The notes under the pieces are model-generated. The model was not told the origin of the DNA and searched no databases. It saw nothing but the letters and a program-made list of their open reading frames with translations. DNA of 35,772 nucleotides from a virus. Numbering within the stretch: the first letter of the stretch is position 1; the number at the start of each line of letters is the position of its first letter. The stretch covers positions 1 through 35,772 of the IMG/VR virus record IMGVR_UViG_3300045912_000934; one strand, given 5' to 3'. The position numbers and the translations under genes were made by a program. Shown one piece after another: positions 1,261 through 23,717 of this stretch.

Positions 1261-1691
1261 TAGGCAATCGTTCGAATTGCGACTGAAGCACTTTCCACGG
1301 CGGCAGTCGCGTGTCACACAGGGCATGGCAGGGCTTGGTGAGGAGGCGGGCACACCGCGACAACGGCATCACCCGCCTCCTACATCCTAAGGTAGCAGAG
1401 AAAACAGGAGATAAGGCGTCAGATCAGTTTCGTGCCTCGCAACCCATTGATATATTTGGTTCCTTCCCGGCGTGCAACCTATGCTGGTGGCAGCAGCCCG
1501 GAAGATCGCCAGCGTGAACCGCAGAAACCGGGAAGCCACCCAAGTTTGAAGCCAAGTCCATCCCGCGTATTCGTTTCGTGATATCAGAGGCTTAGCATTG
1601 GATCCCGGCGGCTTCCGCCGGATCCGGTTCCGCCTCCCGAAGCGGCCTCCTCCTAGCCGCCGATCTCGCCGCTCCCCGCGGCGATTTTTTT
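1261..1691 (+). ncRNA. Gene-free structured interval, possible leader or small RNA
   Basis: About 430 bases without a convincing gene; the only rightward frame (1311-1517) has no recognisable protein and no ribosome site. The stretch contains several inverted repeats: GCGACTG at 1279-1285 with CAGTCGC at 1304-1310, AGGAGGCGGG at 1341-1350 with its exact complement at 1372-1381, a near-perfect GGATCC-flanked hairpin at 1600-1625, and the terminator hairpin at 1666-1691. It is bounded by a promoter candidate and that terminator, so a discrete structured transcript is plausible. No known RNA family was recognised. Confidence 0.4.
1666..1691 (+). terminator. Intrinsic terminator upstream of the methyltransferase
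   Basis: A perfect seven-pair stem TCGCCGC/GCGGCGA with a TCCCC loop is followed directly by seven T residues. It is a classic rho-independent terminator for rightward transcription and ends only 19 bases before the methyltransferase ATG, so it could act as an attenuator for that gene. Confidence 0.8.
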
Positions 1692-1710
1692 GGACCAAGC
1701 ACAATCCACC

Positions 1711-3018
1711 ATGACCTCGTTGCCTTTCCTGCCCGAGCAGATCGAGCAGTGGCCGATCGCGCGCCTGAAGCCGTACGCGAAGAACGCGCGCACCCATTCT
1801 GAGGATCAGATCGCCAAGATCGCCGCCTCGCTGGTGGAGTACGGCTGGACGGCGCCGGTGATGGTCGCCGACGACGGCGAGATCGTCGCCGGTCACGGCC
1901 GGCTGCTGGCGGCACAGCATCTGGGCCTGAACGAGGTGCCGATCATCCGGTTGTCGCACCTGACGCCGGAGCAGGTCCGCGCCTACCGGATCGCGGATAA
2001 TCGTTTGTCCGAGCTGTCAGGCTGGGATGACGAGCTGCTCGCGGCCGAACTGCACGCGCTCAATGCCGCCGGCTTCGACTTGGGCCTCACCGGCTTCGAG
2101 GGCGAGGACTTAGAGAGGCTGCTGGCGCCGCTTGACGAGGGCGACGGCCTTGCCGGTGAGGACGTCGTCCCCGAGCCGCCGGCCAATCCCGTGTCGCGGC
2201 TGGGCGATCTCTGGCTGTTGGGCGAGCATCGCTTGCTGTGCGGCGATAGCACCAAGGCGGACGACGTCATCCGCGTCATGCACAACCATAAAGCGATCTT
2301 ATTTGCAACCGATCCTCCCTATTTGGTTGATTACGACGGCACCAACCATCCGTCGAAGCAGGGTGCCCCCGACAAGAACAAAGACTGGGGCAACAGCTAC
2401 GGCATCACCTGGGACGACTCCAGCCAGGGCCCGGAGCTCTACGAAGGGTTCATCAAGGCTGCCATCGAGCACGCGATCCTGCCCAACGCCGCCTGGTACT
2501 GCTGGCACGCCAGCCGCCGCCAGGCGATGGTCGAGGGCGTGTGGGAGAAGTACGGCGCCTTCGTGCATCAGCAGATCGTCTGGGCGAAGGACCGCGGCAT
2601 CCTGACGCGCTCCTATTACCTCTGGCAGCACGAACCCTGTTTCTTCGGCTGGATCAAGGGCAACAAGCCGCCCAGGATCTCCGAAGACTATCCGGGCACG
2701 GTGTGGCAGCTGCCGACGGTGAAGGTGGGCGAGAAGACCGATCACCCGACGTCGAAGCCGGTGGAGGTGTTCGCCATCCCGATGCGTCAGCATGCGCGGC
2801 CGGGCGAGGTCTGTTACGAGCCGTTCGCCGGCTCGGGCTCGCAGATCATTGCCGGCGAGACGACGGGCCGGCGGGTGTTCGCGATTGAGATCTCGCCGCA
2901 GTACGTCGACGTGGCGGTCAGGCGCTGGCAGACGGCGAGCGGAAAGCAAGCGACGCTTGATGGCGATGGTCGGACGTTCGACGCGGTTGCCGGCGAGCGG
3001 TTGCCGAGAGCGGCCTGA
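1711..3018 (+). CDS. ParB-like domain / DNA methyltransferase fusion
   Basis: A 435-residue protein. Residues about 10-115 form a ParB/sulfiredoxin-like nuclease-fold domain, with EIVAGHGRLLAAQ around 57-69 and an RIADNRLSE segment after it. The rest is an amino-methyltransferase: the DPPY catalytic motif begins at D201 and the S-adenosylmethionine motif FAGSG at F372. This order (catalytic before cofactor motif) is the beta class. DPPY is typical of N6-adenine enzymes, though N4-cytosine is possible. The fusion is frequent in phages, where it may protect phage DNA from restriction. A TTG at 1690 could extend the frame by seven residues, but it lies in the terminator T-run, so the ATG at 1711 is preferred. 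The Shine-Dalgarno is weak. Confidence 0.9.
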   Translation: MTSLPFLPEQIEQWPIARLKPYAKNARTHSEDQIAKIAASLVEYGWTAPVMVADDGEIVAGHGRLLAAQHLGLNEVPIIRLSHLTPEQVRAYRIADNRLSELSGWDDELLAAELHALNAAGFDLGLTGFEGEDLERLLAPLDEGDGLAGEDVVPEPPANPVSRLGDLWLLGEHRLLCGDSTKADDVIRVMHNHKAILFATDPPYLVDYDGTNHPSKQGAPDKNKDWGNSYGITWDDSSQGPELYEGFIKAAIEHAILPNAAWYCWHASRRQAMVEGVWEKYGAFVHQQIVWAKDRGILTRSYYLWQHEPCFFGWIKGNKPPRISEDYPGTVWQLPTVKVGEKTDHPTSKPVEVFAIPMRQHARPGEVCYEPFAGSGSQIIAGETTGRRVFAIEISPQYVDVAVRRWQTASGKQATLDGDGRTFDAVAGERLPRAA

Positions 3019-3029
3019 TGGGCGATGAC

Positions 3030-3104
3030 CGCGGAGTGCAAGGAGCGGTTCCTGGCGGGGCCCATACCCCCGAGACGCGGGTTCAAATCCCGCCTCCGCA
3101 ACCA
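3030..3104 (+). tRNA. Initiator-like tRNA(CAU), divergent
   Basis: The sequence folds as a cloverleaf. The acceptor stem is 3030-3036 with 3094-3100. The anticodon stem is CGGGG/CCCCG around the loop CCCATAC, giving anticodon CAU. The T arm is GCGGG-TTCAAAT-CCCGC and a genomic CCA is at 3102-3104. Three initiator hallmarks are present: a C1-A72 mismatch, an A11-U24 pair, and three G-C pairs at the base of the anticodon stem. Deviations are C33 in place of U33, an A-C mismatch in the D stem, G at position 14 and U at 21, and a four-base variable loop. It begins 12 bases after the methyltransferase stop. It may be a working phage initiator tRNA, a tRNA mimic or a decaying copy. Confidence 0.65.
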
Positions 3105-3125
3105 TCGCCAAAGCAGTCGCGGGCA

Positions 3126-3362
3126 ATGTCGCTGATCGAAGCGATCACCAATGTCGCCGTCGGGTTCCTCGTGGCGCTGTTGACGCAAGTCATCGTCTTC
3201 CCGCTGTTCGAGCTCGAAGTGGGCCTCGGCGAACACCTCGCGATCAGCGGGCTATTCACGATCGCATCGATCGCCCGTTCTTATCTGCTTCGACGGCTCT
3301 TCGAGGCGATCCGCGTCGCGCGGGCTGAGCCTGCCAGACCGCGCCGGCGACGGGCGTTCTGA
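3126..3362 (+). CDS. DUF7220 family small membrane protein
   Basis: A 78-residue protein with two hydrophobic segments (about 8-27 and 36-53) followed by a basic SYLLRRLFEAIR stretch and an Arg-rich tail. This matches the small phage membrane family DUF7220, whose function is unknown. The frame stays open upstream through the tRNA, but those codons are an artefact; the ATG at 3126 begins the family-like sequence MSLIEAITN. It ends one base before the convergent leftward gene stop at 3364. Confidence 0.8.
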   Translation: MSLIEAITNVAVGFLVALLTQVIVFPLFELEVGLGEHLAISGLFTIASIARSYLLRRLFEAIRVARAEPARPRRRRAF

Positions 3363-3363
3363 T

Positions 3364-3606
3364 CTATGCGGGCTGAAAGAAGCCGGCCGCGATCAGATCC
3401 TCGATGAAGGCCTCGGCGCTGTCGGCGCGGACATCGCTGCCGTCCCAGGCCGCACAGTTGGCCGCCATCTGCGCCATGAAGTCGGCGGCGTCGCCGTGCT
3501 CGAGGAAACTCAAGGCGCGCAGGCGGTCGACCAACTCGGCCGCCGTCGTCGCCTCGTAGACGCGGCCGTCGTCCTGGGCGCGGTATCGCATAGCGGTCGT
3601 CCTCAT
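3364..3606 (-). CDS. Small hypothetical protein
   Basis: An 80-residue acidic protein, last gene of the leftward accessory operon. Its ATG overlaps the stop of the cyclotransferase gene as ATGA, so translation is probably coupled; an internal ATG at 3591 is a possible alternative. It contains RVYEATTAAELVDRLRALSF and a C-terminal SAEAFIEDLIAAGFF. I recognise no family. No signal peptide or membrane segment is evident. Confidence 0.6.
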   Translation of the reverse strand: MRTTAMRYRAQDDGRVYEATTAAELVDRLRALSFLEHGDAADFMAQMAANCAAWDGSDVRADSAEAFIEDLIAAGFFQPA

Positions 3607-4115
3607 TCGCACGCCTGAGCCACCCCTGCCGCCCACGGCGGCGAAACGGTGTCGCCGTCGAACCACGATGCCCGCTCGGCACGCTTGGCGAGGCTGATCG
3701 CGTCGGCCTGCGCCGCGCGCAGCGGCGAGAGATCATCGAAGCCGAAGTCGCGGTAGCCGTCGGCGATCGAAGCGAGATAGCCGTCGGACGCCGGGCCATA
3801 GTCGCGCTGGCGCGGGCCGTTCATCACGTAGGCCATCGGCTTCGCCCGCTTGCCGTTGGGGAGCGCTACCACAATGCGCTCCTTGACGTAGAGATGCGGG
3901 AAGCCCTCGTAGGCATCGAGTGCCCGCTCACAGGCCCGGGTGATCTCCCACAGCGCCGCCGGCGTCACGGCTTGCGCATCCGGCTCGATGTCGGCGACGC
4001 GCTTCATGACGAGGCGCCAGCCCTCAAGCCGGATGGCGGCGAGTGGCCGGGCCTTGGGACAGCGCCTGGCCATCAGACAGCGGTTCATGTTCGAGCCGTA
4101 GGCGACGTAGAGCAT
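3603..4115 (-). CDS. Gamma-glutamylcyclotransferase-like (AIG2/GGCT fold) protein
   Basis: A 170-residue protein with the GGCT signature YGSNM at residues 6-10 and the expected acidic residue in AYEGFP (E70), the position of the catalytic Glu in characterised cyclotransferases. The family releases 5-oxoproline from gamma-glutamyl amines or peptides. It lies 17 bases downstream of the amidoligase gene on the same strand. Amidoligases are known to be paired with GGCT-fold proteins in phage and bacterial gene neighbourhoods, where one makes and the other may break gamma-glutamyl or similar amide links. The actual substrate cannot be read from the sequence. Confidence 0.85.
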   Translation of the reverse strand: MLYVAYGSNMNRCLMARRCPKARPLAAIRLEGWRLVMKRVADIEPDAQAVTPAALWEITRACERALDAYEGFPHLYVKERIVVALPNGKRAKPMAYVMNGPRQRDYGPASDGYLASIADGYRDFGFDDLSPLRAAQADAISLAKRAERASWFDGDTVSPPWAAGVAQACE

Positions 4116-4132: not shown

Positions 4133-5110
4133 TTAGGCGACGCGGCGCTCGCGGCGCGCGAAGTATTGGGCGCGGCGGCGCAGGTAGGCCGCGGTCTCGT
4201 CATCGATGCCGGCCATCACGTGGTCGGCGGCGTCGACCGCGCGGTTGATGATCGCATAAACCGTGGTGCCGTTCTCGCGGCGGCTGACCACCTCGAGGCC
4301 GCGCTTGCGCAGCTGGGTGGAGATCGCGGCCCGTAAGGTATGCCGCTGCCAGCCGGTCGCGGCGATCAGGTCGTCGATGCTGGCCCCACCCATCCGGCTC
4401 AGCATGGTGACCACGGTGCCGATTTTGCCGTCGGCGGGGATCAGCGCGGCGGTATTGGTGCCGGCGGCGACGCGGCGGCTCTCCTCGATGAAGCCGAGGC
4501 CGAAGCGGATCCAGGCCAGTGCTTTCTCGGCCTCGACCGTGCCGCCGTGCTGGCGGAACTCGATGGTGCGGTGGCGGCGCCACGCTTCCAGGTTGACCTT
4601 GGCGTAGCGGGTGCCGAAGGCATCGCAGGCTTCGGCGGTCGAGCGGCTGGCCAGCTTCTGCATCACGCTGGCGCTCTGCAGGAAGGTGCGAACGCTGCGG
4701 CAGAAGCGGTTGGCGTTGCCGCGGCGGCTTGGCGCCATCCAGGCGTCGATGTCGTCTTCGAACTTGGCGTAGCGGCGCACCACCGTGGCGATCTCGGCCG
4801 CCGAGAGGTCGGAAGCGCCAAAGTGCGCGTGCAAGCCTGTTCTCTTGTCGACTCTGGCCCCAGCGGCGTTCAGCGCGTCGAGGACTGCCTCCGCTGTGCT
4901 GAGGCCCTGTTCACCCTTGAGCACCGGGCTCACCACCTCGAAGCCATCGGGAACCGAGGCATCGCTCACGATCTTCCAGTGGCCGCGGGCCTCGTGGTTG
5001 TAGCCTTCGATGCGGGCGTCGATGCCGGCGTTCCTAAGCGCCATCTCTGCCGCCTGTTTGGTAATGCCGAAGGCCTCGATCTCGATTCCGAAAGTCCTGT
5101 TGCTCATCAT
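4133..5110 (-). CDS. Amidoligase-family enzyme fused to a DUF3489 DNA-binding-like domain
   Basis: A 325-residue protein. Residues 1-225 match the glutamine-synthetase-fold amidoligase family (Amidoligase_2): FGIEIEAFG at 7-15 supplies the first acidic metal/ATP ligands, TGLHAHFGA at 91-99 the conserved His pair, and TIEFRQHGGT at 182-191 the conserved EFR motif. Such enzymes are predicted to form amide bonds between carboxylates and amines using ATP. Residues about 230-290 form a DUF3489 winged-helix-like module (DLIAATGWQRHTLRAAIS), an unusual partner that suggests DNA association or autoregulation. A GGAG ribosome site lies eight bases before the ATG at 5110. A second ATG follows directly at 5107. 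Confidence 0.85.
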   Translation of the reverse strand: MMSNRTFGIEIEAFGITKQAAEMALRNAGIDARIEGYNHEARGHWKIVSDASVPDGFEVVSPVLKGEQGLSTAEAVLDALNAAGARVDKRTGLHAHFGASDLSAAEIATVVRRYAKFEDDIDAWMAPSRRGNANRFCRSVRTFLQSASVMQKLASRSTAEACDAFGTRYAKVNLEAWRRHRTIEFRQHGGTVEAEKALAWIRFGLGFIEESRRVAAGTNTAALIPADGKIGTVVTMLSRMGGASIDDLIAATGWQRHTLRAAISTQLRKRGLEVVSRRENGTTVYAIINRAVDAADHVMAGIDDETAAYLRRRAQYFARRERRVA

Positions 5111-5245: not shown

Positions 5246-5494
5246 TTATTGCCTCCTTGATTGCGGTGCGTTTCTGGCCTCGTCCAGCAGCCGCTGTTTG
5301 AACTCGTCGGGCGCGGCCATGCTATCGGCGATCGTCTTGCCGAAACGCAGCGCTCCGGCCTTTCCGACATAGAAGAAGGTCCCGTCCGGCCGCTTCAGCG
5401 TGACGTACTTGCGGCTGCGGCTTGCGACCGGCGTGCCCCGGCCGGAGGCGATCAGCGCATCGACGAGGCGCTGCTGGAGCGTGGGTTTGGCCAT
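5246..5494 (-). CDS. Small hypothetical phage protein
   Basis: An 82-residue basic protein starting MAKPTLQQRLVDALIASG, with a central KYVTLKRPDGTFFYVGKAGALRFG that reads as a short beta-rich motif. The ATG at 5494 is chosen because GGAGG lies seven bases upstream of it; a GTG at 5509 overlapping the previous stop is the alternative. I do not know a function. The gene lies between a DUF3489 protein and the amidoligase fusion in one leftward operon. Confidence 0.65.
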   Translation of the reverse strand: MAKPTLQQRLVDALIASGRGTPVASRSRKYVTLKRPDGTFFYVGKAGALRFGKTIADSMAAPDEFKQRLLDEARNAPQSRRQ

Positions 5495-20867: not shown

Positions 20868-23717
20868 ATGGCTGACCGTTCCCTTGCCATTCGCCTTGCC
20901 GTCATCGACGGTGGCAAGGTGAAGGCCGAGTTGCGCGATGTCGGCGACACGGGAAGCCGCTCGCTGAAGCGGATCGAGGATGCGGCGCGGCCGGCGTCGC
21001 GCGCGCTGCAGGCGCTCGACGGCGTCGCGGGCGAGGTGCGCGGCGGGCTCGAAGCGATGAGCGGCCGGCTGGGTGCGGTGGGATCGGGGCTTGCCCGGCT
21101 GGGACCGATCGGGCTTGCCGCCGGTGCAGCGCTGGCCGGCATCGGCATCGCCGTGGGCAAGGGCATCGAGGAGGCGGCGAAGGCCGATCAATCCTACCGC
21201 CGGCTGGAGGCGGTGCTGAAGGCAACAGGTTTCGCCTCGGGCCTGACGGCGAAGGAAATCGCCCAGTTCGCCGATGGCATCGAAGCCTCGACGCTGGCCA
21301 CCGCCGAAGGCGTCGAAGATGCCGCCGCGATCCTCGCCACCTTCCGCTCGGTCTCGGGCGAGACGTTCACCCGGGCGCTGACGCTGGCGCAGGACATGGC
21401 GGCGGTGTTCGGTCAGGACCTGTCGTCGGCGGCAACCCAGCTGGGCAAGGCGCTGGAAGACCCGATCGACGGGCTCACCGCGCTGCGCCGGGTTGGCATC
21501 TCGTTCTCCGACAGCCAGAAGGAGCTTATCAAAACGCTGGTCGAGACCGGCCAGACGGCGGACGCGCAGCGGGTCATCCTCGATGCGCTGGAGGGGCAGG
21601 TGGGCGGCGCCGGGGCGGCGGAAGCGGGCGGCCTTACCGGTGCCACCAACCGGTTACAGGACGCCTGGGGCAATCTGCTGGAAGCGATCGGCCGCACGCC
21701 GGCCGTCACCGGCATCGCCCAGGGCGCGCTCAATCTGCTGTCCGGCGCCATCGAGAGGCTGACGAGGGCGTTCGAAGAGGACTCGATCTCCCAGCAGATA
21801 GAGGCGGCGAAAGCCCGGCTCACACAGGCCCGCGACGAGCTTTCGCGCCTGGAAACGGCCGGGCCGGGCACGCCGCTGCTCGGCCTGCGCTTCGATCTCG
21901 ACGCGCAGCGGAGCCGCGTCGCCGCGCTGGAAAAGGAGCTGGAGGCGCTCACCCGCATCGGCGAGGCGGAAGCGAAAGCTACGGAAGCCGAGAAAGCGCG
22001 CGCCGAAGCGGGCCGCCGGGCGGCGGAAGCGGAGCGGCGGACGGAGGCGCTCGCCAGCCAGAGCCGCGAGATCGACAAGGCGCTGGAGCGGCTGGCGACG
22101 CCGGCGGAGAAGATCGCGGCGGTCAACCGCGAGCTCGCCGAGATGAAGAAGCGGCTCGAAGCATTGCGCGCACCCGACAAGTCCAATGCCGGCGAGATCG
22201 ATAGTGCCCTTCGCAAAGCCGAGGAACTCGCCCGCCGGCAGATCGCCGCACTCAAGGGTGCCGGCGAAGGCAAAGGCGCGGACCTGGATACGGCCCGGGA
22301 GCGACTGCAGGACTATGCGAACAAGCTGGTCGAACGCGCCGCCGCCGAGGGCATCGATCTGAAGGTGACCTCGCTGGTCCGCTCGCGCGAGCAGCAGCAG
22401 CGGCTCTACGACGCCTGGCTCGCCCGCGCCAAGACGGGCCTGCCGGCGGCGCCGCCGGGGAATTCCAAGCACGAGCAGGGGCTCGCCTTCGATGTCGCAA
22501 TCCAGGGCGGCGGTTCACCGGAGCAGTGGCAGCGGCTGGGCCGGATCGGCAAGTCGATGGGCCTGCGCTGGGGCGGCGACTTCGCGCGCTCGGATCCGGT
22601 GCACTTCGAGATCCCCACCGAAGCAGCAGCCACCCGCGCCGCGGAGGCGGCCGAACGCGCCTACGAGGCGAACCGCGAGGTGATCGAACGGCTCGCCCGC
22701 GACCTTGCCACCTTCGGCGACGAGCGGCAGCGGTTCGTCGATCAGGCGCTCTCCAGGCTGTCGGAAGGCGCGACGGCCGAGCAGCGGGCGGAAGTGGAAC
22801 GGCTGGCGAACAGCCTCTACGACGAACGGGAAGCCCGCGAACGGCTGGCCGAAACGATGCGCCAGGAGGAGCAGCTGCGCGCCGAAGGCACGCGGCTGAT
22901 CGAGGCGACGCGCACCCCGGCGGAGCAGCTGGCCGACACCATCGCCCACCTCGACGAGCTGATGCGGGCCGGCGCCATCGACGCCGAAACGCACGGCCGT
23001 GCCCTGGCGGACGCGTACGGGCAGGCCGAGGATGCCGCCGATCGGGCGCTCCGCGCCAGCCGCGACTGGCAGGACGGTGTTGTCCGCGGCCTGCGCGACT
23101 ATGCCGCCGAGGCGACGGACGCCGCATCGCACGCCGAGCAGGTGATGGGCAACGCTTTTCAGGGGATGGAGGATGCGCTCGTCCAGTTCGTGCAGACCGG
23201 CAAGCTCGACTTCCGCTCGCTCGTCGACTCGATCATGGCCGACCTGATGCGGATGGCGATCCGCGAGAGCATCACCGGTCCGCTCGCCGGCTTGCTCAGC
23301 GGTGGCGGTGGGGCGGCAGCCGGAGCGGCGGGTGGGACTTCCGGCGGCGGGCTGTTCGGCGGTCTCGGAACCTTTCTCGCCGGGCTGTTTCACGAGGGCG
23401 GCATTGCGGGCGACACGGGCGTGCGCTCGCGCATGGTCGATCCGGCGATCTTTCTCGCCGCCCCCCGCTACCACACCGGCGGCATCGCCGGCCTGCAGCC
23501 GGACGAGATCCCGGCCATTCTCAAGCGCGGCGAGGCGGTGCTGACGGAAAAGCAGGTGGCGGCGATGGGCGAGCAAGGCAAAGTTGGCGACGGCGGCCGT
23601 CCGGTGACCGTCGTCATGAACATCACCACCCCCGATGCCGGCGGCTTCCGCCGGAGTCAGGGGCAGATCGCCGCCGAGGCGGCCCGCGCCATGGAGCGCG
23701 CGCGGCGGAACCTGTGA
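20868..23717 (+). CDS. Tail tape measure protein with M15 peptidase domain
   Basis: A 949-residue protein. Residues 1-290 resemble tape-measure N-terminal regions, including a hydrophobic stretch (GPIGLAAGAALAGIGIAVG). Coiled-coil segments span about 305-440 and 590-760. Residues about 475-583 form an M15/VanY-like peptidase: SKHEQGLAFDV (H535, D542) and DPVHFEI (H579) supply the zinc ligands in the standard spacing order. A Gly-rich hydrophobic segment lies near 805-845, before the usual C-terminal NITTPDAGGFRRSQGQIAAE. The protein sets tail length, and the peptidase would open the peptidoglycan during DNA entry. Confidence 0.92.
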   Translation: MADRSLAIRLAVIDGGKVKAELRDVGDTGSRSLKRIEDAARPASRALQALDGVAGEVRGGLEAMSGRLGAVGSGLARLGPIGLAAGAALAGIGIAVGKGIEEAAKADQSYRRLEAVLKATGFASGLTAKEIAQFADGIEASTLATAEGVEDAAAILATFRSVSGETFTRALTLAQDMAAVFGQDLSSAATQLGKALEDPIDGLTALRRVGISFSDSQKELIKTLVETGQTADAQRVILDALEGQVGGAGAAEAGGLTGATNRLQDAWGNLLEAIGRTPAVTGIAQGALNLLSGAIERLTRAFEEDSISQQIEAAKARLTQARDELSRLETAGPGTPLLGLRFDLDAQRSRVAALEKELEALTRIGEAEAKATEAEKARAEAGRRAAEAERRTEALASQSREIDKALERLATPAEKIAAVNRELAEMKKRLEALRAPDKSNAGEIDSALRKAEELARRQIAALKGAGEGKGADLDTARERLQDYANKLVERAAAEGIDLKVTSLVRSREQQQRLYDAWLARAKTGLPAAPPGNSKHEQGLAFDVAIQGGGSPEQWQRLGRIGKSMGLRWGGDFARSDPVHFEIPTEAAATRAAEAAERAYEANREVIERLARDLATFGDERQRFVDQALSRLSEGATAEQRAEVERLANSLYDEREARERLAETMRQEEQLRAEGTRLIEATRTPAEQLADTIAHLDELMRAGAIDAETHGRALADAYGQAEDAADRALRASRDWQDGVVRGLRDYAAEATDAASHAEQVMGNAFQGMEDALVQFVQTGKLDFRSLVDSIMADLMRMAIRESITGPLAGLLSGGGGAAAGAAGGTSGGGLFGGLGTFLAGLFHEGGIAGDTGVRSRMVDPAIFLAAPRYHTGGIAGLQPDEIPAILKRGEAVLTEKQVAAMGEQGKVGDGGRPVTVVMNITTPDAGGFRRSQGQIAAEAARAMERARRNL

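Follow-up and report, generated by a model that had tools for sequence, protein, structure and literature searches.

The window analyzed here, positions 1 to 35,772 of the viral record IMGVR_UViG_3300045912_000934, carries one tRNA gene that, judging from its sequence, is a genuine phage initiator-type tRNA with the anticodon CAU. This is probably a functional phage-encoded initiator tRNA that would supplement or replace the host initiator during infection. The kind is already known, in the sense that phage-encoded tRNAs, some of them annotated as tRNA-Met, show the same features; what is unusual here is C33 and the site at which the gene is located.

The gene was called by ARAGORN as tRNA-Met(CAU), the sole tRNA in the window, and matches the Rfam tRNA model RF00005 with 40.6 bits (cut-off 29; E-value of 2.2e-5 over the window). 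The E-values of the covariance search, together with the presence of a tRNA of the identical type in a related contig, L001, are better than chance. The acceptor arms are CGCGGAG/CTCCGCA, with an encoded ACCA tail; the D-arm region reads TGCAAGGAGCGGTTCCTGG; the anticodon stem is CGGGG/CCCCG with the loop CCCATAC; and the variable loop of 4 nt, AGAC, is followed by the T arm, GCGGG-TTCAAAT-CCCGC. The determinants of formylation and initiation are C1xA72 accompanied by G2-C71, C3-G70 and G4-C69, the A11-U24 pair, and GGG:CCC in the anticodon stem. The window tRNA possesses the complete set, which fits its use as an initiator: 1:72 is not a Watson-Crick pair, 11:24 is a purine-pyrimidine pair, and the anticodon stem consists of C27-G43 and four G-C pairs (28-31/39-42) that include GGG:CCC at 29-31/39-41. 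Thus, the signatures named in the original prediction, namely C1-A72, A11-U24, the G-C anticodon stem, CAU and the encoded CCA, are all in place, and C1xA72, A11-U24, the three G-C pairs, CAU and CCA are shared with bacterial tRNA-fMet. In bacterial initiators, the variable loop typically has 5 nt, position 21 is A and the anticodon loop reads CUCAUAA; the window tRNA departs from this by its bulged D stem, by C33, C38 and U21, and by a variable loop of 4 nt.

The original prediction further held that A14 and A21 are replaced and that the D stem contains a mismatch, and accordingly that core positions have changed. Most of this depends on the register of the D arm, which contains one extra base. 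In the Rfam alignment, a base is inserted 5′ of the D stem, A14 and G15 are kept, and 10:25 is mismatched; in the alignment to R1, a covariance model of related phage tRNAs described below, C10-G25 is paired, the next A is bulged, and A11-U24, G12-C23 and G13-C22 follow, the only unpaired position marked in the entire tRNA being 1:72. The two models disagree on the identity of the extra base (C in one, A in the other), and a MAFFT alignment of ten related tRNAs shows a single extra base common to the window and L001. A14 is intact in both the Rfam and the R1 alignments, so its supposed replacement resulted from a wrong register; with A14 and G15 kept once the extra base is placed, the alignment suggests that U8-A14 and G15-C48 can form. 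The D-stem mismatch appears in the Rfam alignment but not in the better model, R1.

The pyrimidine (U) at position 21 is real but common among phage initiator-like tRNAs. The relevant sample comprises 175 distinct, parsable sequences among 224 CAU tRNAs, from 1828 ARAGORN tRNAs in the collected loci; because these loci were drawn partly via 3′-end and anticodon-stem patterns, the sample is biased and its frequencies do not hold for phages in general, and its named records include a plasmid, L405. In this biased sample, 71 of the 175 tRNAs combine a 1:72 mismatch with R11:Y24, and 17 of these 71 have a pyrimidine at 21; C38 is found in 42 of the 175. The true departures of the window tRNA are C33, the pyrimidine at 21, C38 and the D-stem bulge, such that the claim of a changed core is largely a register artefact, with just C33 and the D-stem bulge being unusual. 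The features of the locus are collected in Table 1.

Table 1. Coordinates of the tRNA gene and of the elements around it in the window
Feature	Position	Strand	Evidence or remark
ParB-like domain and N6/N4 DNA methyltransferase, start codon uncertain	1690..3018	+	phrog_498, PF01555
Open frame with DUF7220 (PF23858), domain from about 3111	3018..3362	+	Alternative start ATG 3127
5′ leader arm GGCGATG of 7-bp inverted repeat	3021..3027	+	Pairs with 3103-3109
tRNA-CAU, initiator type	3030..3104	+	ARAGORN; Rfam, 40.6 bits; phage-lineage model R1, 83.6 bits
tRNA positions 8-26 including the D arm; A or C as the single extra, bulged base	3037..3055	+	Rfam, MAFFT and R1 alignments; A11-U24, G12-C23, G13-C22; A14, G15 intact; U at 21
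Anticodon loop CCCAUAC (C32 C33 C34 A35 U36 A37 C38)	3061..3067	+	L001 counterpart UUCAUGC
3′ arm CATCGCC of 7-bp inverted repeat, overlaps encoded CCA	3103..3109	+	Pairs with 3021-3027

The window tRNA fits a recurring phage CAU type with an AGGAG-N-GGU D arm and an AGAC variable loop. A pattern taken from its 3′ half (the 3′ side of the anticodon arm, the variable loop and the T arm) matched 14 contigs; one of these (L384) was not called as a tRNA by ARAGORN, and the rest yielded ten distinct tRNAs, that of L001 included. Their D arm, a part that the pattern does not cover, reads GAGGAG-N-GGU-(1-2 Y)-CCUU in most of them; similar tRNAs are found in about nine other phages and in Rhizobium phage RHph_I1_18. 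The model R1 was built from six other phage tRNAs (alignment A2), with the window and L001 left out; its members had been gathered via the 3′ half of the window tRNA, and the D arm and the acceptor are the independent part of the test. R1 assigns 85.9 bits to L001, 83.6 bits to the window and 82.4 bits to RHph_I1_18, compared with 57.3-76.7 bits for CAU tRNAs from the 13 remaining named records; the window tRNA thus scores above all 14 CAU tRNAs from named phages or the plasmid scored beside it (57.3-82.4 bits), and the remaining tRNA-like matches in this comparison reach 49.4 bits or less. Among 100 of the contigs collected by pattern search, the top score of R1 was 83.7 bits, for L312; the type thus grades into other initiator-like tRNAs of phages without a sharp limit. 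With the cloverleaf imposed on ten related sequences, those of the window and L001 among them, 94.3% of the cells are paired, and double-sided changes occur in 12 of the 21 pairs; none of 500 shuffles was as high, and no more than 3 such pairs remain when the structure is slid; the standard 1:72 pair is absent in nine of the ten.

The tRNA-Met(CAU) of RHph_I1_18 (MN988519), found by BLAST, resembles that of the window in the D-arm core AGGAGCGGUUCCU, AGAC, A72 and the encoded CCA, and differs from it in the loop CUCAUAA with U33, in U1-A72 and in the lack of an extra D-stem base; unlike the window tRNA, it is located in a tRNA cluster, and three further members of the type (L386, L390 and L391) also lie among other tRNAs. 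Searches with a D-arm 16-mer in viral contigs (18 stretches) and with a 21-mer in genome contigs (one stretch) retrieved no tRNA other than that of L001 (identical to L130). Among the papers listed by literature searches on phage initiator tRNAs, VapC and initiator tRNA, C33 and tRNAs within reading frames, no title or abstract opening describes the type. Initiator-like CAU tRNAs were also seen on actinobacterial plasmids (matches H141-H170), of which L405 was read.

A search with the methyltransferase gave 43 loci, among which only L001, 86% identical to the window at the DNA level over 3.1 kb, carries a tRNA, at the identical junction (5347-5421). The two tRNAs differ in 4 of 75 bases, at sequence positions 32, 33, 37 and 56 (standard 57), all of them in loops and three in the anticodon loop; none of the 42 stem bases has changed (P about 0.034). 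In the overlapping reading frame, the changed codons are nonsynonymous in three of three cases inside the tRNA and in seven of seven over positions 3018-3127, and the DUF7220 stretch that follows the tRNA differs by 29%. Given a frame that shows no peptide constraint and this divergent neighborhood, the stems appear to be conserved for the RNA rather than for the peptide. The identity of the stems and the confinement of all four differences to loops do not favor the recent decay envisaged as one explanation in the original prediction. The low raw divergence of the tRNA was rejected as a proof of selection because 18% of the other 75-nt windows differ by 4 bases or fewer. A prediction that leaves modifications and tertiary contacts out of account gives the L001 tRNA a misfolded structure at -36.4 kcal/mol, compared with -28.7 kcal/mol for its cloverleaf: GGUUC precedes the anticodon and recurs in the T arm, so that the anticodon arm and the T arm are predicted to pair. 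In the window tRNA, which has C32 C33, the T stem is retained in the predicted ensemble; a second, weaker thought is that these two bases may spare it the misfold.

As originally described, the gene lies between two phage genes, with the ParB-methyltransferase upstream and the DUF7220 gene downstream. The methyltransferase stop overlaps ATG 3018 as TGATG, and from this ATG the DUF7220 frame is open in phase across the entire tRNA (25 codons). In most relatives, the two genes overlap directly: an ATG or GTG stands immediately before a KQSR-like segment in 77 of 80 DUF7220 loci, a TGA overlaps the DUF7220 start in 77 of 80, and 46 of 80 have a methyltransferase homologue that ends upstream within 600 nt. 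Between the two genes, the window and L001 have the tRNA with short flanks; the usual start is lost (CCA, TCG), and the KQSR codons remain. Two (L099 and L123) of the three other DUF7220 loci that lack the usual start have in-frame upstream ATGs, which implies that longer DUF7220 N-termini occur. No promoter-like or terminator-like sites were found around the tRNA and, among the 120 places listed in which a tRNA precedes a DUF7220-like start, none passed the DUF7220 filter. In the precursor, the perfect 7-bp inverted repeat would prolong the acceptor stem so that it takes in the CCA end (z of -2.64 with the repeat); as the repeat is absent in L001, this helix was rejected as a conserved element. 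Elsewhere in the window, genes for an amidoligase and a gamma-glutamyl-cyclotransferase-like protein adjoin each other (4133-5110 and 3603-4115, respectively) on the minus strand, opposite to the structural genes, and the tape-measure protein (20868-23717) contains an inserted VanY/M15 peptidase domain.

Only two phages, those represented by the window and L001, carry a tRNA at this junction. None was detected in 26 terminase relatives (many loci incomplete, 11 with a methyltransferase homologue), from which it follows that the acquisition of the tRNA is, as far as sequence comparison goes, sporadic; the methyltransferase and DUF7220 loci of relatives, L001 excepted, likewise have no tRNA. No tyrosine or serine recombinase domains (PF00589, PF00239) were identified in the record, which may be a fragment, and neither ARAGORN nor Rfam detected a second tRNA piece in the window. 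In agreement with the earlier statement that the gene does not mark an attachment site, that reading was rejected, there being no integrase or resolvase in this possibly fragmentary record and no repeated tRNA end. The nearest named terminases are those of Rhodobacter capsulatus phages (63.7%), and accordingly the host is probably an alphaproteobacterium.

U33 is a feature of tRNAs in general rather than of initiators, and its loss can impair decoding; C33 is expected to harm a tRNA that enters the A site more than one that acts in the P site. The replacement of U33 was correctly noted in the original prediction, and it is private to the window, given that U33 is found in L001 and in each of nine further distinct members of the type; C33 therefore most likely arose on the window's lineage. 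It is rare, being found in 5 of the 175 distinct CAU tRNAs, with U33 in the other 170, and four of the five C33 tRNAs have a GGG:CCC stem versus 9 of the 170 others (Fisher P of 9e-5, in a post hoc comparison that includes the window). The other phage CAU tRNAs with C33 are those of L399 (576-651), L353 (801-875), L233 (5404) and L335 (9550), three of which have GGG:CCC stems. Like the window, the tRNA-Met of Pseudomonas phage PfAn1 (PV364321) combines the loop CCCAUAC, with C33, and a GGG:CCC stem, and the tRNA of L353 does so with the loop CCCAUAA; however, both have C11-G24 in the D arm, as in elongators, and PfAn1 has U1-A72. Metazoan initiators naturally carry C33, according to PMC9023262.

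We infer that the window tRNA would share a transcript with the methyltransferase gene and the DUF7220 gene, be excised from it by host tRNA-processing enzymes, be charged with methionine and then formylated, and be used to deliver fMet to the ribosomal P site; C33 would be tolerated because initiators enter the P site directly. The initiator part of the earlier interpretation is supported, and a special role for this tRNA is possible. Counting against a functional tRNA are its overall divergence, which is not exceptional, the sharing of the junction by only two phages, the predicted misfold of L001 and the loss in the window of a nearly invariant U33. The last two observations, together with the loss of A21 and A38, the differences between the loops of the two copies and the sporadic occurrence (none in the 26 terminase relatives, nor at the methyltransferase and DUF7220 loci of relatives except L001), would also be compatible with a decaying passenger, that is, an unused tRNA acquired by recombination that slowly loses conserved bases such as those replaced by C33 and in the bulged D stem. 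We regard this as unlikely, because in R1 the stem pairs of both copies are intact save for the functional 1:72 mismatch, no stem substitution has accumulated next to a DUF7220 region that differs by 29%, and other strong-stemmed phage tRNAs also have C33.

The tRNA sits precisely where, in most relatives, two genes overlap; no promoter or terminator of its own was found, and in the window's precursor an extra 7-bp helix surrounds it. These features could point to a role outside translation, either as a mimic that titrates an enzyme or a nuclease, or through its excision, which would cut the transcript of the methyltransferase and DUF7220 genes and thereby control DUF7220. Such a role seems quite improbable in view of the full initiator features and the encoded CCA and of the absence of the helix in L001; moreover, for the L386, L390, L391 and RHph_I1_18 members that sit among tRNAs, translation is the simpler reading. 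It is scarcely credible that the gene is an elongator or a mis-called CAU tRNA that is merely initiator-like, such as an Ile-CAU tRNA carrying lysidine: of the 51 elongator-like phage CAU tRNAs, in which 1:72 is paired and 11:24 is Y-R, 17 do have C38 and the loop UUCAUAC, but the 1:72 mismatch, A11-U24 and GGG:CCC are jointly present in only 8 of the 175 CAU tRNAs, the window and L001 among them, and C33 should be more harmful in the A site.

For the functional initiator, the selective reason that we favor, as the least certain part of the proposal, is insurance against the loss of the host initiator tRNA, including evasion of nucleases that act on the anticodon loop. Codon supply, which accounts for many phage tRNAs, gives no reason for an initiator, because all genes need the same start tRNA. 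VapC toxins, one of them from an alphaproteobacterium, are described in PMC8522696 as targeting initiator tRNA, which VapC cuts in the anticodon stem-loop (PMC8522696, PMC7180214), and van den Berg et al. (2023; PMC10264068) propose that phage tRNAs evade anticodon nucleases via loop changes. The window tRNA likewise has a loop unlike the usual initiator loop, and it may plausibly evade VapC or similar anticodon nucleases. PMC10264068 also reports, however, that phages usually avoid carrying tRNA-fMet where VapC-LT2 acts, an observation at odds with a general rule of evasion. A more far-reaching and rather doubtful extension is that phages maintain an initiator lineage of their own whose loops drift away from that of the host, up to C33 in GC-rich stems, so that phage translation would continue once initiator-specific anticodon nucleases have destroyed the host tRNA, and that in the window and L001 the same 75 bases also encode an N-terminal extension of DUF7220. 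With an initiator type that recurs in phages and has altered loops, the idea of nuclease evasion becomes testable on a single molecule, and the occurrence of C33 in several phage tRNAs raises the question of how far a bacterial P-site tRNA can dispense with U33.
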